Source: Planctomycetota bacterium
GTDB lineage: Bacteria > Planctomycetota > Phycisphaerae > Sedimentisphaerales > Anaerohalosphaeraceae
NCBI GenBank assembly: GCA_019456225.1
Contig: VRUI01000012.1
Span: 1-64,000 of the forward strand
Reading direction: 5' to 3'
DNA length: 64,000 bases
Shown here: positions 31,410-48,701 of the stretch, in pieces
Numbering within the stretch: the stretch's first letter is position 1
Layout: the number at the start of each line of letters is the position of its first letter
Position numbers and translations under genes: made by a program
The notes under the pieces: generated by a model
What the model saw: the letters and a program-made list of their open reading frames with translations, nothing else
The model's database searches: none
Told to the model about the DNA's origin: nothing

Positions 31410-32492
31410 TTATTTGAACCAGGTTGAGATGTCCAGGATGTTGGCTTTTTTCTTTTTTGGTTTTTGGATCACTATTGCTTTGTTTGCTTTTTTCAATTTC
31501 AGGCTTTTTTTGAAGTTTTCCGGCGATGACTGAAGGCTTCTTTTGTAGCCGTATTCTGTGTCTTTGTATTTTGTCACGATCTTCTTGTCCATTACGCGAT
31601 CTTTTTTTCTGAATTTTCCGGTTATTGTCGCGCCATACCACTTATAGGGGTACTCGTGGGTTTTTATCAGCTGGTCGACTTTTGTCAGGTCTACGTTGTG
31701 GGCGGCGGGCAGGTCTGTCTGGGTTACGTCGAGAGTAATGTCTTTTGAGTAGTAGTGCTCGACATACGCCGGTTTATCTGCCTTTATCCTGCCCAGTTTT
31801 TTCTTGTCCCATTTTGACGGCAGGTAAGCGTCGAGCAGTGTCAGGTGGATCTGTGCTCCGGTTTTGTCGGATATGATCTGGGCGGCTGTGGTTATTGCCC
31901 AGGTCCCTGCCGAGTGGGCCACGAGGTGGACGTGGTTTAGTTTCTGCGATTCTGGCAGCAGTGACAGAAAAGCTTTGGCAAGCCTCGGGCCGGCGACGTC
32001 ACTGGAGTATTTGACCGCGTCTATGGGGTTTGCGACGGCTGCTCCGTTTTTCCAGTCGAAATAAAGGGTCATCCATTCGTGAGGTTTTGTTTTGCCCGCG
32101 AAGGCATTTGCCATGTCGGCGGGCCAGTCGCCGGCGCCTTTGTCGATCCAGCCGTGGGTGACGATGACGGCTTTGTCGCAGGTTTTTGGGATGCGTATTT
32201 TCAGCTGACGAGTGACGTTGGGATCGGTTACGTCTTTATTTTTCGGGGTGAGGATGATGTATTGGTAGAAAAAGCTGCCGGGATCGGTAATCCGCAAGAC
32301 GCCGGAGGGATCCTGTGTGATCCTGACGGGATCTTTAAGCTTATAGCCGAGGTCGTTCTTTTTCATGAATTTAATAATCGCTTTACGAGCCTTATTCTCG
32401 GAATACTCGGCATAGGCGCTAAGAGTAACCGACATGAAAAACAACGCCGCGGCGATTATCATTTTTTTGTTTATTGAGTTTTTTTCGAGCAT
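31410..32492 (-). CDS. Exported alpha/beta hydrolase (lipase-like)
   Basis: This 360-residue protein has a signal peptide (MIIAAALFFMSVTLSAYA). An alpha/beta hydrolase domain (about 95-290) has the oxyanion region VIVTHGWIDKG and the nucleophile elbow VHLVAHSAGTWA (AHSAG, a GxSxG variant). A Lys-rich C-terminus follows. The layout resembles pancreatic-lipase-like enzymes of PF00151 (TH-GW, AHSAG and a later LLDAYLP loop). The catalytic Asp is probably the D of LTLLDAYLP; the His is likely in the C-terminal third. The gene ends close to the convergent fusion gene and has GATATT rather than a good ribosome-binding site at 32492. Periplasmic lipid or ester hydrolysis is likely. Confidence 0.78.
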   Translation of the reverse strand: MLEKNSINKKMIIAAALFFMSVTLSAYAEYSENKARKAIIKFMKKNDLGYKLKDPVRITQDPSGVLRITDPGSFFYQYIILTPKNKDVTDPNVTRQLKIRIPKTCDKAVIVTHGWIDKGAGDWPADMANAFAGKTKPHEWMTLYFDWKNGAAVANPIDAVKYSSDVAGPRLAKAFLSLLPESQKLNHVHLVAHSAGTWAITTAAQIISDKTGAQIHLTLLDAYLPSKWDKKKLGRIKADKPAYVEHYYSKDITLDVTQTDLPAAHNVDLTKVDQLIKTHEYPYKWYGATITGKFRKKDRVMDKKIVTKYKDTEYGYKRSLQSSPENFKKSLKLKKANKAIVIQKPKKKKANILDISTWFK

Positions 32493-32816: not shown

Positions 32817-35800
32817 TTATTCCAGGGTGCTGTTTTTTTCCGCGGCTTCTATTGCTGTTTTTCTTAGTTTTATTATGTCGATTTTTCCCGAGCCTAGTAT
32901 TGGCATTTCATTTAATTTGAAGTAATTTGTTTTTTTAGGTTTCCACATGTTCGGCAGATCGCTTTTGTCGGCGATTTGCCGGAGTGTATCGGGGTCGGCG
33001 AATTCTTCGATGTACATAACCACCAGCTGCTCTCCCTTTTTCTGGTCGGGTATGCTGGTTACGGCGAGGACGTGTTCGTGGGTCAGGATTCCCTCGAGGA
33101 GTACTTCTTCTATCGCCAGGTGCGGCACCATCTCTCCGCCTATTTTGCTGAAGCGTGAGAGGCGGTCCGTGATGGTGATGAAACCCTCTGCGTCAATGCT
33201 TGCTATGTCGCCTGTGTCGTACCAGTCGTCGACAAGTTTAGCTTTGGTTTCTTCTTCCATGCCGAGGTAGCCGAGCATGACGTTGGGGCCCTTGATCATT
33301 AACAGTCCGGGTTTATCGGGGCCGAGCATCTCGCCGGTTTCCGTGTCGACTATTTTTGTCGCTATCCCCGGCAGCGGGTGACCGGCAGTGCCGGGTTTGC
33401 TGCCGGGCTGGAAGACTCCGCCGACATCGGCATCGGGAATATTGAGGGTAGCGACAGGTGACAGTTCGGTTGCGCCGTATCCTTCGAGGAGCTTTTTGCC
33501 GAATTTCTTCATAAAGGCGTCGGTGAGTTTTTGCTTTAGTTTTTCCGCACCGACCATAGCTTCGCGAAGTGAGGCGAAGTCTTCGGGTTTGCCTCTTCTT
33601 ATATAGCTCAGGAAAAAAGTCGGCGGTGCAAACAGGATCGTAGAATTGTTCCTTTTGATGGATTCGCCTACGAGTTTTGCGTCGAGTGGGTTTGGTATGT
33701 AACTTGCCGAAACGCCGGATATGATCGGCAGCCAGAGCGAACAGGTGTATCCGAACGAGTGGAAGAACGGCAGGACTCCGCAGAGGTCGTCGTCGAGCTT
33801 GATCTTGAATACCAGACGCATTGTTTCGATGTTCGACAGAATATTGTGGTGGCTGAGCATTACGCCTTTGGGCTGTCCGGTCGAACCTGACGAGAAGATG
33901 ATCGTCGCTACGTCGTCGGCTGTCTTGCCGTATGAATGGGACAGGATCCGGCGAGGAACTAAGAAGGCCTTGACGGCGGCTTTGAATTTGTCCGCTGACG
34001 TTATGGATTTGACGAAATCTTCTATGTAGATGACGCCGGGGAGGTCCTCTTTTATCTCGGCTTTTCTCAGGAACAGTTTGGAAGTTATTACTGTTTTAAT
34101 GCCGCACTGGGCGATTGCCGAGGCTCTTACCTCCGGTGAGGTTACATAGCTGAGATTTACGGGGATTTTCCCGAGCATTGTTACCGCGATATTGGACAGT
34201 GCTCCGGTGACAGACGGCGGCATGATTATTCCGATGCGGTCCTGATGAGCTATCGTTTTTTTGAGTTTGTCGGCCAGGGAGACGGCGGTGATGAGGGTCT
34301 GGAGGTAGTTCAGGTTTTTGCCTGTAGTGTCTGCCAGGCATTTGCGGAAGCGTTTTCTTCGGGCGATCCGTACGAATGTTTCGCCGAGGGTTTTGCGGGT
34401 TGATTTGAGATTGCCGAAATAGTCGCAGGACAGTTCCATGACCTTCTGACGGATTACCGTCGGGGTGGAATTAGAGGGCAAAGGGTCGCCGAAGTGTATG
34501 GAGATGGGGTATGGAAATTTGCTTGGCAGTGATGAGAGGAGTTTGCCCTTGTAGTAACTGAATATGCTTCCCCACGCCCCGCCGATGTATGCCGGTACTA
34601 TTTTGTAATCGGAATTTTTGATTATCTTTTTATACCCGCTTTTAAATTCACGGAGCATTCCAGTACGTGTGATCGTGCCCTCTGCAAAGATGCAGACTAT
34701 CTCACCATCGTCCATAGCTGCACGTGCCTGCCTTAATGATTCTACAATTTTTTTTGGCGGATCTGTCGCGGAGATCGGGATAACCCGCATTAGTTTAAAG
34801 ATCGGGTGCAGCCATTTTGATTCGTATTTCGCGCGATCCATGACGAAGCGGATACGGCGTGTCTGGGCGGCCGACAGCAGTACCGCGTCGATCCAGGAAA
34901 CGTGGTTTGAAACGATCATGACTCCGCCCTGGGCAGGGACTTTTTCTTCGTCGACAACCTTTATGCGGTAGCAGATACGGGCGATAAAAAGGGTAAGAAA
35001 CCGCACCAGAAAATCCGGCAGTTTTATTATCGTCACTACCGTCAGTATCAGAGTCAGCAAACTTATCACTACAAAAACTTGCGAAGCCGACAGTTTCAGC
35101 CATTCGGAAAATACATACAGCATCCCCGCTGACAGGAGTACCCCGATCCAGCCGATAAAGCTCGACGCGGCGAGTACCTGGCCTCGTTTGGCTTTGGGGC
35201 TTTTAATCTGAACAAATGAGTGGATGGGTACAACATACAGACCGCCGCTAACGCCGAGCAGAACAAGCAAAGCAAATACGACCCACATATTGGAAGCCCC
35301 GGCAAGCAAAAACATCGAAAGCGAAAGACCAAGCGCGCCAATGGGAACTATGCCTAATTCGACATGCCTGCCGGAAAGCCGGCCCGCCCAGAATGAACCT
35401 GCGCCTATACCGATAGCACAGAAGAAAAACAGGTATCCGCTATTGATAGAGTCAAAATCAAGAACCTCCCTGCCGTAGGCGAACAGGTTCATCTGTATAA
35501 AAGCGCCGATCATCAAAAAGTACGCCGACGCAAGAACAGCCATCAAAAGATTCTTATCGTGGCGAATTTCAAGAATAGTACGCAATATATCCCGGATAAA
35601 GAACACCGAAGGCTTTGCATCCTTGTTGGCCGGAGGCGTCTTCCTGATCGGAAACGTAAAACTACAGCCGATGATCGCGAACAGCACGCAAAAGGCCGCC
35701 GCAAACCCAAAATCTTCACCGGTGATCTTTTTCAGGATAAACGACGCACCCACCGTACCGAATATGATCGCCAGGTACGTCATCGCTTCTATGTAACTGT

Positions 35801-36236
35801 TGGCACGGGACACCTGGTCGGCTTCAACAAGTTCCGGGATTATACCGTACTTGGCCGGCGAGAAGAACGTGCTCTGCGTTGCCATCAAAAATAAAGTGAA
35901 GTAAAGTGCCATCGGACTCTGAAAGTAAAAGGCCAAAAAACCGACAACCATTATGAAAGCCTCGCTTACTTTTGCAACGACCACTATATTGCGTTTGCTG
36001 AACCGGTCGGCGAATTTTCCGGCAATGGGCAGAAAAAGCAGAAAAGGCATAACAAAAACAGCAGCGACCGCCGTGGTAACGGTATTGGTCTTTTCAACAG
36101 GATACTGGTCGATAAGGTACATCGTCATCAGGAACTTGAAGAGGTTGTCATTCAACGCTCCGCTGAACTGAGTAAGGTTAAGAAAAGCAAACGATCTGTC
36201 CATTTTTGTTTTAGTTTTCATAGTTCCATCAATCAT
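32817..36236 (-). CDS. Trifunctional phospholipid remodelling protein: LplT-like MFS, PlsC acyltransferase and acyl-ACP/CoA ligase
   Basis: This 1139-residue fusion has three modules. Residues 1-410 are a 12-helix MFS transporter related to lysophospholipid transporter LplT (FLNLTQFSGALNDNLFKF). Residues 430-620 are a PlsC acyltransferase with the catalytic HX4D motif NHVSWID and the glycerol-phosphate-binding FAEGTITRTG. Residues 650-1139 are an AMP-dependent acyl ligase with IIFSSGSTGQPKGVMLSHHN, the GYGATELSP region and YDTGDIASID. E. coli carries LplT and Aas as separate proteins; here they are one polypeptide that could flip, re-acylate and activate fatty acids for lysophosphatidylethanolamine recycling. 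Two ATGs are possible (36236 and 36221). Confidence 0.9.
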   Translation of the reverse strand: MIDGTMKTKTKMDRSFAFLNLTQFSGALNDNLFKFLMTMYLIDQYPVEKTNTVTTAVAAVFVMPFLLFLPIAGKFADRFSKRNIVVVAKVSEAFIMVVGFLAFYFQSPMALYFTLFLMATQSTFFSPAKYGIIPELVEADQVSRANSYIEAMTYLAIIFGTVGASFILKKITGEDFGFAAAFCVLFAIIGCSFTFPIRKTPPANKDAKPSVFFIRDILRTILEIRHDKNLLMAVLASAYFLMIGAFIQMNLFAYGREVLDFDSINSGYLFFFCAIGIGAGSFWAGRLSGRHVELGIVPIGALGLSLSMFLLAGASNMWVVFALLVLLGVSGGLYVVPIHSFVQIKSPKAKRGQVLAASSFIGWIGVLLSAGMLYVFSEWLKLSASQVFVVISLLTLILTVVTIIKLPDFLVRFLTLFIARICYRIKVVDEEKVPAQGGVMIVSNHVSWIDAVLLSAAQTRRIRFVMDRAKYESKWLHPIFKLMRVIPISATDPPKKIVESLRQARAAMDDGEIVCIFAEGTITRTGMLREFKSGYKKIIKNSDYKIVPAYIGGAWGSIFSYYKGKLLSSLPSKFPYPISIHFGDPLPSNSTPTVIRQKVMELSCDYFGNLKSTRKTLGETFVRIARRKRFRKCLADTTGKNLNYLQTLITAVSLADKLKKTIAHQDRIGIIMPPSVTGALSNIAVTMLGKIPVNLSYVTSPEVRASAIAQCGIKTVITSKLFLRKAEIKEDLPGVIYIEDFVKSITSADKFKAAVKAFLVPRRILSHSYGKTADDVATIIFSSGSTGQPKGVMLSHHNILSNIETMRLVFKIKLDDDLCGVLPFFHSFGYTCSLWLPIISGVSASYIPNPLDAKLVGESIKRNNSTILFAPPTFFLSYIRRGKPEDFASLREAMVGAEKLKQKLTDAFMKKFGKKLLEGYGATELSPVATLNIPDADVGGVFQPGSKPGTAGHPLPGIATKIVDTETGEMLGPDKPGLLMIKGPNVMLGYLGMEEETKAKLVDDWYDTGDIASIDAEGFITITDRLSRFSKIGGEMVPHLAIEEVLLEGILTHEHVLAVTSIPDQKKGEQLVVMYIEEFADPDTLRQIADKSDLPNMWKPKKTNYFKLNEMPILGSGKIDIIKLRKTAIEAAEKNSTLE

Positions 36237-36252: not shown

Positions 36253-37296
36253 TTATTTAGTGCTGTCTTTAAGGTAATTGTTTATTTCATTGAATACTTT
36301 GATTTTCATTTCTTTTGTTTCGTTGAACAGTTCGTGTTTTGCTTTTTTTAGTATTATTTCTTTGGTATTGAATTTTTCTGCGAGGAATTTTGTGTTGTAT
36401 TTCCAGTCGACCGTGTAGTCTTTTTCGCCTTGTATTATCAGGAGCTTGTTTTCGGTTGGGTCAAGGGCGGCTACTTTGCTGTTCCATTTTTCCAGTGCTC
36501 TTACCCACATCAGGGGCACTCTTCGCTTATGCAGGAAGTCGCGGGATTTGTTGAATTTCATGAAATCCGGGTCCGAGGTGTTTTTGCGGGCTATTCGCGG
36601 GACGGAATCCCTGAAGGGCCAGTAGAGGCGATACGTGATCTGGGCATGCCTCCACCCGACCGGGTGGATCAGGGGTGCTACCAGGATTGTTTTTTCGAAG
36701 AAGTTTTCTTTGCCCTCCAGAAGTGTCTGGATCACCGCACAGGCGCCTTGACTAAAAGCCATGACATTGTACGGCGCCGGGCAGCGAGCCGCGACGATCG
36801 GTTTGAAGTCCTGCATTACTTTTACGTATCTGTCGAAGCTGTCTATCCATGCGTCTTTGCCGGTAGAGAGGCCGTGGCCGGGCATGTCGTATGCACAAAC
36901 GGCGTAACCGCTTTCGAGCAGATGGCGGATGGCGTATTTGAGCTGACCGCAGTGGTTCAGGTAGCCGTGCATTATTACGACTGTTCCTTTGGCGTTTGCA
37001 GGCAGATATATGTGGGCGGCGATGGTGAATCCGGCTGACTGGAACGTGCCGAACGAATGGGCGACGCCTTCGACATGCTTTTGGGGGGCTAATCCGAAAT
37101 AGTCAAAGTAGTAGCTGATACTTTCGGAAGATGCCGCCGGCTTTGAGTTTAGCGGGCTCATCTCGCCACGGATACGATCTATACTGTATTTTGGTTCAGC
37201 CATGTGTCTATTCCTGTTACAACCTAAGTTGCCAAATACTCCGGACAGGAGTATTGTAAGCGTTAGTATATGTTTTGTCTTTTGTTTTTTCGACAT
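36253..37296 (-). CDS. Exported alpha/beta hydrolase (monoacylglycerol/lysophospholipase-like)
   Basis: This protein of about 347 residues has an N-terminal hydrophobic segment (HILTLTILLSGVFGNLGC), a possible but imperfect lipobox. The alpha/beta hydrolase core has VVIMHGYLNHCGQL (oxyanion region), YDMPGHGLSTG, and the nucleophile elbow NVMAFSQGACAV (FSQG, S as nucleophile). Likely Asp and His are in LLIIQGEKDYTVD and KKAKHELFNE. This is the lysophospholipase/monoglyceride lipase branch. It ends 17 bases before the LplT-PlsC-ligase gene, so it very likely produces lysolipids in the same recycling route. The start at 37296 has AGGA close by; a longer frame from 37332 has none. Confidence 0.85.
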   Translation of the reverse strand: MSKKQKTKHILTLTILLSGVFGNLGCNRNRHMAEPKYSIDRIRGEMSPLNSKPAASSESISYYFDYFGLAPQKHVEGVAHSFGTFQSAGFTIAAHIYLPANAKGTVVIMHGYLNHCGQLKYAIRHLLESGYAVCAYDMPGHGLSTGKDAWIDSFDRYVKVMQDFKPIVAARCPAPYNVMAFSQGACAVIQTLLEGKENFFEKTILVAPLIHPVGWRHAQITYRLYWPFRDSVPRIARKNTSDPDFMKFNKSRDFLHKRRVPLMWVRALEKWNSKVAALDPTENKLLIIQGEKDYTVDWKYNTKFLAEKFNTKEIILKKAKHELFNETKEMKIKVFNEINNYLKDSTK

Positions 37297-37368
37297 TTTC
37301 CTGTAGTGATTATGACTATTTTTCTTTGGCATTTTGCTAGAATGTTTTTTTTAATTCGTACTTTATTT

Positions 37369-37544: not shown

Positions 37545-38174
37545 CTATGCGGCATTTATTGCGCCGGCAATGTGCATTTTTTGTACATTACTGCCGATTG
37601 CGTATACCAGGGCAAAGGCTATCAGGCCGCCTGCTGCTCCGCCTATGTGGGATACGGCGACGGGCGAGCCCATCATGTTGAAGTGGAGCAGCTCCAGGAA
37701 CATGTGGCCGGCGGCGGCTTCGTATATGGATTTGGCGGCTACGAGGAATAGGGAGACCGCGCCGGCGATTTTGACGGTTTTGCCGCTGCCTTTGGCCGTC
37801 AGCATTTCCAGGGCGCAGATGGTCATCAAACCGTGGTCGATTCCGGACAAGCCGCAATAACCGACCGAATCTACGTACGGCAAGACGACAGCGGCGGCTA
37901 ACATGCTGCCGATAGAGGCGGCGGCGACATAGAATGTTCTGACGGCGAGAGATTTCGAGGCCAACTGACAGTAGAGCATTAGAAACGCCGCACCGTCGAG
38001 CAGAAGGTGGTACCAGCTGACATGGACAAAGGCATGTGTAATGAGACGCCAGAACTGACCGGCCATGATCTTCTCCGGATAGAAAAGCAAAAAGTCAGGT
38101 ACAGTACCGGCAAAAATGCCGAGATTGAAGACGGCAATGAAGACTATATAAATTTTTAATTCTTTGTGTTTCAT
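37545..38174 (-). CDS. rrtA: Rhombosortase-like rhomboid intramembrane serine protease
   Basis: This 209-residue protein with about six membrane helices has the rhomboid catalytic dyad. Serine 110 lies in GYCGLSGIDHGLM and His 176 in AVSHIGGAAGGL; the HAFVHVSWYHLLLDG segment (H51, H56) fits the L1/H2 region. The short single-domain form and the GLSG(I/V).HGL phrase place it with rhombosortase rather than housekeeping GlpG-type rhomboids. Rhombosortases cleave GlyGly-CTERM tails and thereby sort proteins. The gene is 95 bases past a VIT/VWA gene whose C-terminus has a Gly-rich segment, a short membrane helix and a basic tail, a plausible substrate. Both are in the same orientation as the sigma54 promoter at 40662-40676. 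Confidence 0.78.
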   Translation of the reverse strand: MKHKELKIYIVFIAVFNLGIFAGTVPDFLLFYPEKIMAGQFWRLITHAFVHVSWYHLLLDGAAFLMLYCQLASKSLAVRTFYVAAASIGSMLAAAVVLPYVDSVGYCGLSGIDHGLMTICALEMLTAKGSGKTVKIAGAVSLFLVAAKSIYEAAAGHMFLELLHFNMMGSPVAVSHIGGAAGGLIAFALVYAIGSNVQKMHIAGAINAA

Positions 38175-38221
38175 TGTTTTAATAGAATTAGCGATCAGAA
38201 ATATTTGCCCAAGCCTCCATT

Positions 38222-38253
38222 GCCGGTCGGCTTATTGGGCCGACCGGCTTTTT
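38222..38253 (+). terminator. GC-rich hairpin in the gap between VIT/VWA and rhombosortase genes
   Basis: A perfect 10-bp stem GCCGGTCGGC/GCCGACCGGC (38222-38231, 38239-38248) has TTTTT only on the plus strand. In the direction of the two minus-strand genes there is no T run, so it should not stop their transcription efficiently. It may instead lower or stabilise the downstream part of the mRNA, or end antisense transcription. Confidence 0.55.
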
Positions 38254-38269
38254 GGGTTTCAGTTTTCCT

Positions 38270-40318
38270 CTAACTTTTTTTCTTTGCTGCTTTTTTTCGT
38301 TTTTTCAGCCATATAACAAGACCAATGAACAATGGACCGACCGGGCCTGAGCCAGTTCCAAAGCCTGGTGAGCGGCGTTTCTTGAATGTGTTTTTGTTTG
38401 CGTCCTGGTTTCTTTTGCTGTTGTCTACGCGGTAGCTTTTTACCGGCTGTGACTGTCTTTGCTGCTGTGCCTTGCGTTCGTTGGTTACGCGGTCTCGGTT
38501 TTTGCGTTCTATGTTTCTGCGTTTGAAGCTTTGCTCTGTTATTACGAGCATCGAGGTGTAATCGGTTACCAGCGAATAGTCGATGCCGAGCTTGATCACT
38601 TCCCTGCGGAAGACATCCGTTTCGCCTTCGTCGCGGATCACGTCCATTACGTCTTCTATGCTTGACAATGCCCACAGGCGTTCCAGCTCGGGGTTGTCGG
38701 TGTCGACTTTGGGCAGGTCTGCGAAACAGGAGTATGTTTTTTCCTTGCCGGATACCCAGGCCTTCATCTCGACCTCTACTTCGCCGGGCTTGTCGTACTG
38801 GCCGAACATTACCAGCTGCTGGCCATAGAATAGCGAACCGATGACCTGCGGGGTTAGCTCGCTGACTTTTTCGCCTTTGATCTTGAGAGTAACGTTTTTC
38901 ATGTTGTCGTAGACGAGATGGTTCTGGGCCTGTAATATCCTTCCGGTGATGTCGTCGCTGTCGGAGATGCTCATCGCGAAACCGCCGGAGTCCTTGGCAA
39001 GACGTTCCATTAGTTTGCGGTCGCCGCCGTTGCCGATGACGAATGAGAAGAGGCGAACGTCGTACTCTTCCAGCATGGAGAGGAATTTCGTGTACTTGCC
39101 CGATTCGATCTCTGTCACTCCGTCGGTTACTATTATAACACCGGTCGGACGTTTTTTATCGATGCCTTTGCAGGCGGTTATCAGGCCGGCATAAAGCTCG
39201 GTTCCGCCGCCGCCTTTTATTGAACGTACCTTTTTGAGGGCTTTTTCGATGTTTTCCGGCGTTGCCTGCACGTAGCCTTTTGTAATGTCTCTTGCCGTGG
39301 AGCTAAAGGCGATCACGCGGAAACGGTCATCGCCGGTTAGTTTATTGATAGACTTTGAAACGCCGTCGATCAGGGTGTTCAGTCGCGTCCCCCGCATACT
39401 GCCGGACGAGTCGAGCACGAAAACCCAGTCGCTGCCGCCTTCGATCTTTTTCAGGTCGGCGGCGGGAGTTACAACAACCATAAAAGTCCCTTTAGAAGAC
39501 TTATCCCTGCGATACGGGACAAGCTCAACCCTCGCCGGGGCAGTCTCGTCAAGGCGATAATAAAAGATAATATCCTTGTTAAGAGTGACAGCTTGCTCGG
39601 AGTTGAGGCTTGCGCGAAACACACTTGTCTGACCGCCTTGTCCTTTGGTTATGTTTTCTATTGTCGCGGCGTCCTGAAAACCGGGCATCCGAACATCCTT
39701 GACGGGGAATGCGCTCTTTAGCGTCAGGTCAAAACTGAACTGTCCTTTTACTTCCTCGTCGATCGACCAGAAGGCGGACTGTTCCGCGTCCGAACCGCCG
39801 CCGGCGAGCGGGTAGACGTATCTGCCGATGTTCAGGTCTATCTTGATGGGCTGATAATAAACGAAACGCATGCGTGTGTCGCCGCCGGCTATTACGGGGA
39901 ATACTGTTATGTCGAATGTTTTGCTGCCGTTTTTTTCGGCGAGAGCCGGGTCTATGCGTTTGCTGGTTTCCTGTCTGTATATCTGGCGGGCCTGTTTGCG
40001 CTCGAGCACCTCGCCGATGACCTCCTTGCCGTCTATCCACAGGCTAAGCTCGGAGAGGCTGGCGTTTTCCGGGATCGGGAAAGAGTAGACCGCCTCAAGG
40101 TCGCGGGCATTTTTATTACCAAATACCTGGTCGACCTCCGTGCGAGCGAAACCGTTGTTGATGGTAACGCTGACCTTGTGGGATTTGAGAAAAACATCCG
40201 AGGGGTTTCCGTTTACGGGTTTAAGTATTCCGGCTGCAAAACATGGCGAAAGACTACATGTCACCATAACCGTAAATACTAACGCTCCTACTAAAAATCG
40301 CTGTCCATAATCCTTCAT
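38270..40318 (-). CDS. Secreted VIT and von Willebrand factor A domain protein with C-terminal anchor
   Basis: This 682-residue exported protein has a signal peptide (about 1-29, VGALVFTVMVTCSLSPCFAA). A VIT domain covers about 35-165 (VSVTINNGFARTEVDQVF, YSFPIPENASLSEL). A vWA domain has the full MIDAS motif D303-SSGS307 in WVFVLDSSGSMRG, plus FSSTA and IVTDGV. A beta-rich region and a basic, Gln-rich linker follow. The final 30 residues are Gly-rich (GFGTGSGP), then a short membrane segment (VGPLFIGLVIWL) and KKRKK, like sorting tails. A similar layout with an LPXTG-type tail occurs in marine-proteobacterial sortase targets; here the neighbouring rhombosortase is the candidate processor. 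The start is preceded by AAAGGA. Confidence 0.87.
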   Translation of the reverse strand: MKDYGQRFLVGALVFTVMVTCSLSPCFAAGILKPVNGNPSDVFLKSHKVSVTINNGFARTEVDQVFGNKNARDLEAVYSFPIPENASLSELSLWIDGKEVIGEVLERKQARQIYRQETSKRIDPALAEKNGSKTFDITVFPVIAGGDTRMRFVYYQPIKIDLNIGRYVYPLAGGGSDAEQSAFWSIDEEVKGQFSFDLTLKSAFPVKDVRMPGFQDAATIENITKGQGGQTSVFRASLNSEQAVTLNKDIIFYYRLDETAPARVELVPYRRDKSSKGTFMVVVTPAADLKKIEGGSDWVFVLDSSGSMRGTRLNTLIDGVSKSINKLTGDDRFRVIAFSSTARDITKGYVQATPENIEKALKKVRSIKGGGGTELYAGLITACKGIDKKRPTGVIIVTDGVTEIESGKYTKFLSMLEEYDVRLFSFVIGNGGDRKLMERLAKDSGGFAMSISDSDDITGRILQAQNHLVYDNMKNVTLKIKGEKVSELTPQVIGSLFYGQQLVMFGQYDKPGEVEVEMKAWVSGKEKTYSCFADLPKVDTDNPELERLWALSSIEDVMDVIRDEGETDVFRREVIKLGIDYSLVTDYTSMLVITEQSFKRRNIERKNRDRVTNERKAQQQRQSQPVKSYRVDNSKRNQDANKNTFKKRRSPGFGTGSGPVGPLFIGLVIWLKKRKKAAKKKS

Positions 40319-40383
40319 TTTTCCGTCCTTTCTAAATTAATTCTCGTTTTCCATAAAAACATTCCGTTATAAAGCTTTACGAC

Positions 40384-40605
40384 CTACAAGAGGCTCGTTA
40401 TCGCGCTGGTGATGTGTTGTATCGCCTTGCCGATTGTGTCTGTTTTTGGGGGGGCGTCGCAGCTCGTTGAGCCGGTGCTTGCTTGTGGATTAAATCCAAA
40501 GAGCAGGAATCCTAATACGCACAGAATGATCAGCCCGCTGAGTTTGAATGATGGCGGTTTTTGTTGATCCGCCAAATTACTTACTTTGTTTTTCTGTCGT
40601 GACAT
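40384..40605 (-). CDS. Small single-pass membrane protein of unknown function
   Basis: This 73-residue protein has a basic cytoplasmic N-terminus (MSRQKNKVSNLADQQKPP), one membrane helix (about 22-38, LSGLIILCVLGFLLFGF) and a short exported part with one Cys (STSCDAPP). The start has a good AAGGAGA at 7 bases, and it lies between a sigma54-type promoter and the VIT/VWA gene 65 bases downstream. It is therefore very probably a real, co-regulated first gene of that unit. No family was recognised. It could be an assembly partner of the VIT/VWA protein. Confidence 0.72.
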   Translation of the reverse strand: MSRQKNKVSNLADQQKPPSFKLSGLIILCVLGFLLFGFNPQASTGSTSCDAPPKTDTIGKAIQHITSAITSLL

Positions 40606-40661
40606 CTGCGTTCTCCTTAAATTTTTATTCCGATTTCCAACTAACCACGCTTATTCTTATC

Positions 40662-40676
40662 GCAAGTGCCGTGCCA
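40662..40676 (-). promoter_or_regulatory. Sigma54 (-24/-12) promoter of the VIT/VWA-rhombosortase unit
   Basis: On the minus strand the sequence TGGCACGGCACTTGC matches the RpoN consensus TGGCAC-N5-TTGC at every conserved base, including the GG and GC pairs. Transcription would start about 12 bases on, near 40650, leaving about 45 bases of leader with a good ribosome-binding site before the 40605 start. The divergent gene at 40798 encodes a sigma54-dependent activator, so regulation is likely direct; activator binding sites upstream were not defined. Confidence 0.8.
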
Positions 40677-40761
40677 GAAAGCCATATAAGCCGTAAATCT
40701 TTATCTGGAAAAGACTTACAGAGAACTGCAAATATTTATTTTTCCGCAAGCAGAAAACCAC

Positions 40762-40791
40762 TTGACATTCTGTGCCTGCCGCATGTACATT
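40762..40791 (+). promoter_or_regulatory. Sigma70 promoter for a leaderless sigma54-activator mRNA
   Basis: TTGACA (40762-40767), an 18-base spacer and TACATT (40786-40791). Only six bases (GAGTGT) separate the -10 box from the ATG at 40798, and there is no ribosome-binding site, so the mRNA probably starts at or next to the initiation codon. Confidence 0.7.
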
Positions 40792-40797
40792 GAGTGT

Positions 40798-42267
40798 ATG
40801 GCAAAGATAAAAATAAGTGCATCGGACAGGGAATTTTTCCATCTGGTATCGCGGGCCGGGTTTACTAATCCGTTCAGTGACCAGCGGCTGGAAATCGACA
40901 GAGCGATATCACGCAACGAATCGGGGACTACGTGGTCGGAGGTTCGGCCTGAGGCGATCAGTGAGGTTAGCAAGCGCATCGCCGAGCTTGACGGGGGCAA
41001 GACTGTCTGCATCGATGATTTCCAGAGTACTGACCGGCAGCTTATCGAGCATTTGTTTTTGTTTGATGTTTATCATCAGTTCAACGACCACTTCGATAAG
41101 CTTATTGACGAACAGGCCGCCGCCGGCGAGAAACTGCTTAAGGCTGCATTTGCCGGCGAGGCGATTTCCAAACTCAAAGCACGCGGATTTTCGGCGAACC
41201 GGGCGAGGCATTATTTCTCACTTTTCTATCAGGTCCGGCGGGCGTTCTATTATATTGAGCGGGGACTTGTCGGCAGATGCGAATCGATGAAGAAGCTGCG
41301 GATGGATCTTTGGAACAATATTTTCACACATGACATCCTTCATTACGAAAGTTTGCTGTGGGATAAGATGGAGGATTTTTCTACGCTTTTGCTTGGGCCT
41401 ACCGGGTGCGGTAAGGGTGCGGCAGCGGCAGCTATCGGGCGAAGCGGGTTTATCCCGTTCGACGAAAGCAAGCAGACTTTCGCCGAAAGCTTTACCGAGA
41501 TGTTCGTGCCGATAAATCTTTCTCAGTATGTAGAATCGCTGCTGGAGTCCGAATTGTTCGGGCACAAAAAAGGCGCATTTACCGGTGCGGTCGCTTCGCA
41601 TGATGGTTTGTTTGCTTTATGCGGACAGCATGGTTCGATATTTCTTGACGAGATCGGCGAGGTGAGCACGCAAATACAGATCAAGCTTTTGCAGGTTTTG
41701 CAGGAGCGGATATTTTCGCCAGTCGGCAGCCACCAAAAGCTAAGCTTCCACGGGCGGGTTATCGCGGCGACGAACAGGTCGATAGATCAGCTTCGTATCG
41801 ACGGCAAGTTCAGGGACGATTTTTATTATCGCCTTTGCTCGGATTGCATCTATGTACCCGGTTTGCAGCAGCGTATCCAGGAAGACGCCGGCGAACTTGA
41901 CGATATGATCGCCGTGACCATCAAACGCATTGCCGGGCATGAATCCGGCGAACTGGTCGAAACCGTTAAGGAAGTTATTAATAAGCGGCTTGGCAGTGAT
42001 TATCACTGGCCGGGCAATGTTCGCGAACTTGCCCAGTGCATCAGGCGGGTAATCATCAAGCGGGATTACGAAGGCGATACGGTTTACAAAATGTCCGGCA
42101 GCAATGAATTCATCAAAGACATCGAAGCGGGCACCCTGGACGGCCAGAGCCTCCTTGCCGGGTATTGCAGCAGTCTATATAAAAAGCATAAAACCTACGA
42201 AGAAGTCGCCCGGATAACCAAGCTGGATCGCAGGACGGTTAAAAAGTATATTCAGCATGAGTCGTAA
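40798..42267 (+). CDS. Sigma54-interacting transcriptional activator (AAA+) with unknown sensor domain
   Basis: This protein of about 489 residues has three parts. Residues 1-190 are a helical region that fits no receiver, GAF or PAS domain I recognise and is presumably the sensor. Residues 195-415 are the sigma54 AAA+ core: Walker A GPTGCGKG (200-207), in which the last residue is Gly instead of the usual Thr/Ser; the sigma54-contact loop ESELFGHKKGAFTGA (GAFTGA at 259-264); and Walker B SIFLDEIGEV. The C-terminal region (about 440-489) has a Fis-like HTH (YEEVARITKLDRRTVKKYI). The start is the ATG at 40798; earlier frames lie inside the promoter. It faces the sigma54 promoter of the VIT/VWA unit. 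Confidence 0.88.
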   Translation: MAKIKISASDREFFHLVSRAGFTNPFSDQRLEIDRAISRNESGTTWSEVRPEAISEVSKRIAELDGGKTVCIDDFQSTDRQLIEHLFLFDVYHQFNDHFDKLIDEQAAAGEKLLKAAFAGEAISKLKARGFSANRARHYFSLFYQVRRAFYYIERGLVGRCESMKKLRMDLWNNIFTHDILHYESLLWDKMEDFSTLLLGPTGCGKGAAAAAIGRSGFIPFDESKQTFAESFTEMFVPINLSQYVESLLESELFGHKKGAFTGAVASHDGLFALCGQHGSIFLDEIGEVSTQIQIKLLQVLQERIFSPVGSHQKLSFHGRVIAATNRSIDQLRIDGKFRDDFYYRLCSDCIYVPGLQQRIQEDAGELDDMIAVTIKRIAGHESGELVETVKEVINKRLGSDYHWPGNVRELAQCIRRVIIKRDYEGDTVYKMSGSNEFIKDIEAGTLDGQSLLAGYCSSLYKKHKTYEEVARITKLDRRTVKKYIQHES

Positions 42268-48212: not shown

Positions 48213-48701
48213 ATGGGTTATGGTTATGCAATCGCTTTGGCAGGAGCAGCAATAGCAACCTTTATGAGTGGTATCGGTTCTTCAATAGGACTTGGTATTG
48301 CCGGTAGAGCCGCTACAGGTGTTCTGAGCGAAAAACCTCAGAGGTATGGACTGTTGACAATTCTGGTTGTTCTTCCGAGTACGCAGGGTATCTACGGGTT
48401 CGTTATTGCCCTGTTCGTAATGCTTAAGCTCAATGTGTTCGGCGGTGGACTTGATTATGTAATGACCGTTTCTACCGGTATAGCCCTACTGGCTGCTTGC
48501 CTTCCTGTTGGTATCGCAGGTTTGTTCAGCGGTATTCACCAGGGCAAAACATGTGCCAGTGGCATCCTTATGACAGCCAAGCGTCCAGACATGTGCGTTA
48601 AAGCCGGTGTTGTATATGCAGCCCTGGTCGAGTTCTACGCGATTCTTGGTTTCCTTGTTTCATTTTTGTCTGTCTTTATCGGCCTCAAGGACGCTGTCTA
48701 G
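48213..48701 (+). CDS. ntpK: V-type ATPase proteolipid (rotor ring) subunit K
   Basis: This 162-residue duplicated proteolipid with four helices carries one essential carboxylate, E140 (AALVEFYAILGF). The Na+-binding residues mapped in E. hirae NtpK appear conserved: L54, T57 and Q58 (VVLPSTQGIYG), Q110 (FSGIHQGK) and E140. The first hairpin has no acidic residue, as in Na+ types. AAAGG precedes the ATG at 48213. This is the strongest sequence hint that the enzyme may move Na+ instead of H+. Confidence 0.94.
   Translation: MGYGYAIALAGAAIATFMSGIGSSIGLGIAGRAATGVLSEKPQRYGLLTILVVLPSTQGIYGFVIALFVMLKLNVFGGGLDYVMTVSTGIALLAACLPVGIAGLFSGIHQGKTCASGILMTAKRPDMCVKAGVVYAALVEFYAILGFLVSFLSVFIGLKDAV

Follow-up and report, generated by a model that had tools for sequence, protein, structure and literature searches.

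VIT/VWA proteins with GlyGly-CTERM tails and adjoining rhombosortases were described in 2011, including a planctomycete pair from Rhodopirellula (PMC3237569). In the Vibrio VesB system, the rhombosortase lays bare a glycine on which glycerophosphoethanolamine, or possibly phosphatidylethanolamine, is then found (PMC6219818). VIT/VWA proteins are also the targets of a dedicated sortase system in marine proteobacteria (TIGR03788 target), and among lipid enzymes, LplT is the flippase and Aas the re-acylating enzyme of lysophospholipids (PMC11416262, PMC13170283), and Ger turns ester bonds into ether bonds (PMC11150832). Transcriptional regulation was not treated in the 2011 rhombosortase description (PMC3237569). 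In the literature we found neither an earlier description of a rhombosortase with sigma54 nor a recurrent regulator of rhombosortases, and sigma54-regulon papers yielded no mention of rhomboid, VWA or acyltransferase targets.

Here we describe a VIT-rhombosortase pair from a Planctomycetota bacterium, an anaerobic planctomycete, in an operon apparently driven by its own sigma54 activator. The window analyzed is a stretch of 64,000 nucleotides, in which the original prediction had placed a compact four-gene set: a 73-residue membrane protein, a VIT/VWA protein and a rhombosortase behind a sigma54 promoter, with a divergent activator. These four ORFs and the promoter were confirmed in the window sequence, with their coordinates. 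The rhomboid intramembrane serine protease (37545-38174, minus strand), which has the GLSG serine and the His, scores 100.7 bits against the rhombosortase model TIGR03902 (cut-off, 84) and is the sole protein above that cut-off in the genome. A catalytic serine in GLSG and the histidine are visible in all nine rhombosortase sequences compared. Its presumed substrate, the secreted VIT/VWA protein (38270-40318, minus strand), has a signal peptide-like start, matches PF08487 at 99 bits and VWA_3 at 58 bits (PF13768/PF00092), and ends in RRSPGFGTGSGPVGPLFIGLVIWLKKRKKAAKKKS. As expected from the initial reading of a Gly-rich, helical and basic end, the alignment revealed a tripartite C-terminal sorting tail, SPGFGTGSGPVGPLFIGLVIWLKKRKKAAKKKS (38273-38371, minus strand), made of a GxGPVGP motif, a membrane helix and a basic end.

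This arrangement resembles the rhombosortase/GlyGly-CTERM system in its protease family, its tripartite tail and its one-target pair encoded side by side (PMC3237569, PMC6219818). Unlike that system, it has a dedicated sigma54 activator and a lipid operon, and its GxGPVGP tail is not matched by the GlyGly-CTERM model (TIGR03501) even at an E value of ≤10; applied to the genome for other targets, the model gave sub-threshold matches only, none of them the VIT tail. With the marine sortase system it shares a VIT/VWA target, a C-terminal tail and an adjoining sorting enzyme, but there the enzyme is a sortase acting with LPXTG, whereas here it is a rhomboid. Assignment of the VIT/VWA protein to TIGR03788 was rejected accordingly (211 bits against a cut-off of 551.65).

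To place the pair in its order, we used a sample of 148 genomes, about 41 of which carry a full or contig-cut activator orthologue (E below 1e-60). A rhombosortase is present in nine of the 148 genomes, all among those with the activator; a hypergeometric count by hand, which ignores relatedness, gives about 5e-6 for this co-occurrence. Neighborhood conservation had been set beforehand as a test, and in 9/9 rhombosortase genomes we found the activator and an orthologous, tailed VIT protein adjoining the rhombosortase. VIT orthologues (51-65% identity) occur only in rhombosortase genomes or, in one case (G067), at a contig end. The tail is present in all nine orthologues with a readable end (the tenth, from G067, is cut by the contig) and in 0/17 paralogous VIT/VWA proteins with readable ends. 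The GxGPVGP motif is invariant in the eight tails that were aligned, including two from Desulfobacterota, and the G048 tail, outside this alignment, reads SGPVGF. Furthermore, a tail-specific model had a single match in the window genome, the VIT protein itself, so that the system looks one-to-one rather than many-to-one. The proposal of a dedicated pair is thus borne out by a sorting tail that appears only where the rhombosortase does, and from this co-occurrence we infer that the rhombosortase cleaves the VIT tail.

The divergent gene (40798-42267, plus strand) encodes a sigma54 enhancer-binding activator with an AAA+ domain (PF00158, 141.5 bits), a GAFTGA loop and a C-terminal HTH; its conserved start is the ATG at 40798, not the TTG at 40762. 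The N-terminal sensor had been reported as unrecognised, in agreement with our finding that no Pfam or NCBIfam family covers residues 1-190. In the structural models (pLDDT 85 and 91), the N-domain (pLDDT 91) is predicted to be all-helical, with about nine helices. Foldseek found no PDB match at E ≤ 0.001 (best VIA Z, 4.2), which is no proof of a new fold. The closest named AAA+ match is RtcR, a sigma54 activator of RNA repair (NF038308), whose model covers just the AAA+ part and reaches 179 bits against a cut-off of 650. We rejected this assignment: unlike RtcR, the activator has a helical N-domain instead of a CARF (Rossmann) domain, and no RNA-repair genes adjoin it. Judging from the genes controlled, its signal is probably the lipid state of the envelope.

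The sigma54 -24/-12 promoter, TGGCACGGCACTTGC (40662-40676, minus strand), matches the RpoN consensus exactly, with a predicted transcription start near 40650. Pattern searches of the 4.45-Mb genome gave 18 matches to the exact consensus and 4 to the reversed control pattern. In 32/38 related loci, and irrespective of the gene behind it, the promoter is found some 120 nt from the activator start and has no more than one mismatch, which puts it well beyond chance. A second exact consensus, TGGCACATGTTTTGC, occurs in the window at 48544-48558 (minus strand), and an identical 15-mer is found at G000:C71:14140.

Upstream of the promoter we identified a candidate activator site (UAS) of 39 bp, CATACACTCAATGTACATGCGGCAGGCACAGAATGTCAA (40762-40800, minus strand), which consists of two degenerate dyads and overlaps the activator start codon. 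Its consensus is CATRCA-N5-TGTA-N11-CAY-N4-TGTCAA, and it lies 123 to 127 bp from the promoter in 31/38 loci. Apart from noise at three mismatches, the element is unique in the window genome. Across 44 genomes, and allowing up to two mismatches, it was found in 28/33 with the activator versus 0/11 without it; the reversed control had one match over all 44. Furthermore, two genomes, G101 and G049, have their VIT-rhombosortase operon on a separate contig without the activator; the element is nevertheless kept there (G101:C83:281 with 0 mismatches, G049:C194:10245 with 2), and so is an exact -24/-12 site. Searching with the element also recovered two further operons away from the activator (L249 and L250), each with a -24/-12 site 127 bp off. 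We consider these copies the strongest evidence for what appears to be a regulatory footprint; together with the promoter, they support the prediction that sigma54 and the divergently encoded activator control the operon. In L250 (3920-5895), the genes behind the two sites encode a small membrane protein and a B12-radical SAM protein. Those in L249 (3688-7872) encode a CBM-type lipoprotein, an S51 peptidase and an amino-acid permease, and thus have no obvious lipid role, which counts against the lipid regulon proposed below. A copy of the element can also be read in Geobacter-type and Nitrospirota loci. For distant planctomycetes, the search gave a weak -24/-12 site or none, which likewise counts against the model.

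The 39-bp element could itself be read differently, as a conserved promoter of the sigma70 type that serves the activator gene, and not as an activator site. It overlaps the start codon, and on the other strand it reads TTGACA-18-TACATT (40762-40791, plus strand), 6 nt before the activator ATG and scoring 10 of 12 in a consensus scan; it is a weak candidate, since the scan total was not above that of shuffles. However, L088, L089 and L250 carry the element at a similar distance from a -24/-12 site with no activator and mostly no divergent gene, and we regard a sigma70 promoter as the sole explanation as very improbable. The element may possibly serve in both capacities, and the overlap hints at a possible autoregulation of the activator. 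From a promoter at this place, the activator mRNA would be leaderless.

Where the original prediction saw a compact four-gene unit, the comparison gave another extent at both ends. The first ORF of the operon (40384-40605, minus strand), preceded by AAGGAG 7 nt upstream of its ATG, encodes a lineage-specific, single-helix membrane protein of 73 amino acids. No homologue of it was found in any other fetched locus, and it was rejected as a component of the system. At the other end, the minus-strand gene series does not stop at the rhombosortase but continues with two lipid genes, and the operon of most relatives is a lipid operon. The first of these genes, 212 bp after the rhombosortase gene, encodes a lipoprotein alpha/beta hydrolase (36253-37332, minus strand; PF12146, 98 bits; lipobox-like LGC), a putative (lyso)phospholipase. 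Its score against the phospholipase BipL (NF052543, 248 bits) is below the cut-off of 450, so that it is called only a BipL-like hydrolase. After a further 16 bp follows a gene for an 1139-aa LplT-Aas fusion (32817-36236, minus strand), which combines a lysophospholipid flippase, an acyltransferase and an acyl-ACP synthetase. It scores 1351 bits against the acyl-[ACP]-phospholipid O-acyltransferase model NF006386 (cut-off, 1221), and the LplT model covers residues 12-400. A further gene may belong to the operon: the product of the next ORF (31410-32492), 360 aa long, weakly matches an alpha/beta hydrolase (DUF900), and its homologues adjoin the LplT-Aas gene in L046 and L050. Between the VIT/VWA and rhombosortase genes lies a GC hairpin with a perfect 12-bp stem (38222-38248). 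Its T-run is on the plus strand only, and thus it is not an operon terminator as read; it may be an mRNA processing element and lead to unequal expression of the two genes.

The lipid genes recall the LplT-Aas recycling of Escherichia coli with PldA, where a flippase and an acyltransferase/acyl-ACP synthetase likewise go with a phospholipase-like protein (PMC11416262, PMC13170283). Unlike in E. coli, they are fused here, under predicted sigma54 control and in the same operon as a protein-anchoring pair. In 37 neighborhoods fetched around activator orthologues of the order, the activator almost invariably points away from an operon of varying content, with B12-radical SAM proteins in 14 loci, an LplT-Aas fusion in 24, and hydrolase homologues adjoining the LplT-Aas gene in 18. 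The operons of relatives also encode Ger/PlsA-type proteins, either as one protein of about 1450 aa or split into 311 + 321 aa. By homology, the large proteins appear to be Ger/PlsA-like, related to enzymes of ether-lipid and plasmalogen synthesis (PMC11150832, PMC9702350): they contain two BcrAD_BadFG stretches, DUF2229 and HGD-D, and are 34% and 32% identical to two Desulfatibacillum alkenivorans proteins whose lengths (1468 and 1401 aa) agree with those of Ger and Ger2. No Ger/PlsA genes were found in the operon of the window genome. In Desulfatibacillum, the UAS was looked for near both large homologues and not found. D. alkenivorans, a known ether-lipid producer, has an activator homologue with an acyl-transferase gene and a ketoacyl-ACP synthase III gene on its divergent side (L193, 5102-9790); these look like fatty-acid synthesis genes. 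The lipid operons repeatedly include a protein family of about 190 aa that matches no Pfam entry (L058, 6605-7216); it is also found between the VIT and rhombosortase genes of a distant planctomycete with the activator (L285, 6884-7444).

The VIT-rhombosortase pair adjoins the activator in only seven of about 36 order loci. In these (the window, L042, L047, L056, L057, L059 and L075) it comes first after the promoter, the pair of the window behind the 73-aa ORF; the L056 contig stops inside the VIT gene. In L057, L059 and L075, a gene of the lipid operon begins less than 20 bp after the rhombosortase gene or overlaps it.

We then asked how far the association extends beyond the order. A phylum sample of 392 genomes gave 29 rhombosortase loci that were viewed, 28 of them evaluable; a VIT protein adjoins the rhombosortase in 24/28, mostly with GGGAxDP-helix-basic tails. 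In 9/16 larger neighborhoods outside the order, an activator homologue (34-48% identity over both domains) is divergent from the VIT gene. Because these loci were chosen by their rhombosortase, the all-VIT clade in the activator tree is partly a product of selection. A wider collection of 80 activator loci across phyla was considered as well, fetched by the N-domain; here LplT/Aas genes lie on the divergent side in 43/80 loci and on the other side in 4/80. The activator family spans Planctomycetota, Desulfobacterota, Nitrospirota and Verrucomicrobiota-type lineages, and the set of activator, VIT protein and rhombosortase was found elsewhere in Planctomycetota and in Desulfobacterota. In four loci from other phyla (L165, L195, L181 and L194), the activator, VIT, rhombosortase and LplT-type genes stand together and the rhombosortases pass the model; the tail differs in L181 and L194 (GGGAMDPVSAL). 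Five rhombosortase homologues adjoining the activator in non-planctomycete records scored 89-103 bits against TIGR03902. One Desulfobacteraceae locus (L151, 9011-9628) combines the activator with a rhombosortase and lacks a VIT gene; a 692-aa HEAT-repeat protein, encoded by the next gene, might be an alternative rhombosortase target.

Taken together, we propose that the activator switches an envelope operon that joins the VIT-rhombosortase anchoring pair to phospholipid recycling, a reading that we hold with a probability of about two in three. The activator, from an as yet unnamed family, would bind the 39-bp upstream site, and its helical N-domain would take the signal, probably the envelope lipid state, upon which it would open the -24/-12 promoter. 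The VIT/VWA protein would be exported through Sec, and its dedicated rhombosortase would cut the GxGPVGP-helix-basic tail and probably transfer the new C terminus to a phosphoethanolamine lipid. From the same operon, the phospholipase-like lipoprotein would be made and the LplT-Aas fusion would flip and re-acylate lysophospholipids, so that the operon would answer an envelope signal by recycling phospholipids and fixing the VIT/VWA protein to lipid. Comparison of genomes supports the promoter/UAS footprint, a co-regulation of the pair and the lipid genes by common sites, and the strict co-occurrence of pair and tail; we infer the cleavage, the lipid attachment, the location and the signal. Display of the VIT/VWA protein at the surface would be conceivable, since secretins of the type II secretion type are encoded in the genome.

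The lipid genes might also be the whole story. Under such an explanation, the regulon would serve membrane-lipid remodelling only (ether-lipid/plasmalogen synthesis and lysophospholipid recycling), and the VIT-rhombosortase pair would be a mobile or incidental passenger with no functional tie to it. Indeed, the pair is patchy on the activator tree, it is present in 7 of about 36 order loci, and it is missing from most loci in which Ger/PlsA or radical SAM genes come first. Most activator loci lack the pair and most pairs elsewhere lack lipid neighbors, and thus the coupling may be a coincidental co-regulation. However, a detached pair keeps its own UAS and promoter, and other planctomycete classes as well as Desulfobacterota show the pairing again beside distant activators, too many cases for a single chance landing. 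We therefore find an incidental passenger unlikely, if still worth bearing in mind.

Conversely, the activator, small membrane protein, VIT/VWA protein and rhombosortase could form a stand-alone inducible cassette for surface display, with the lipid genes as separate transcription units. Most of the distant planctomycete loci carry the activator-VIT-rhombosortase set without lipid genes, and the 212-bp gap before the phospholipase-like gene could hold another promoter. Such a cassette is nonetheless improbable: its small 73-aa member is not conserved, the lipid-operon gene follows closely upon or overlaps the rhombosortase gene in L057, L059 and L075, and most relatives carry lipid genes directly behind the same promoter.

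The VIT-rhombosortase pair itself, part of the four-gene set for which the original prediction gave no earlier description, is already known (PMC3237569). In the literature consulted, we found no description of the activator family, its candidate binding site, the regulon or the connection to lipid genes. The pair appears to be wired, by a recognisable candidate site, into a phospholipid-recycling regulon that in relatives also includes ether-lipid enzymes, and an activator family with an unrecognised sensor domain is defined across several phyla. We further speculate, as a rather doubtful extension of our model, that the rhombosortase joins the VIT/VWA protein to the very phosphoethanolamine lipid remodelled by the same operon, and that the helical domain of the activator senses lysophospholipid or the state of the bilayer. 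If true, this would amount to a regulated, GPI-like protein anchoring tied to lipid remodelling, including that of ether lipids, and common to anaerobes of several phyla. Overall, the locus offers a testable handle on which lipid a rhombosortase attaches to its targets, and on how the making of ether lipids and plasmalogens is turned on in anaerobic bacteria.
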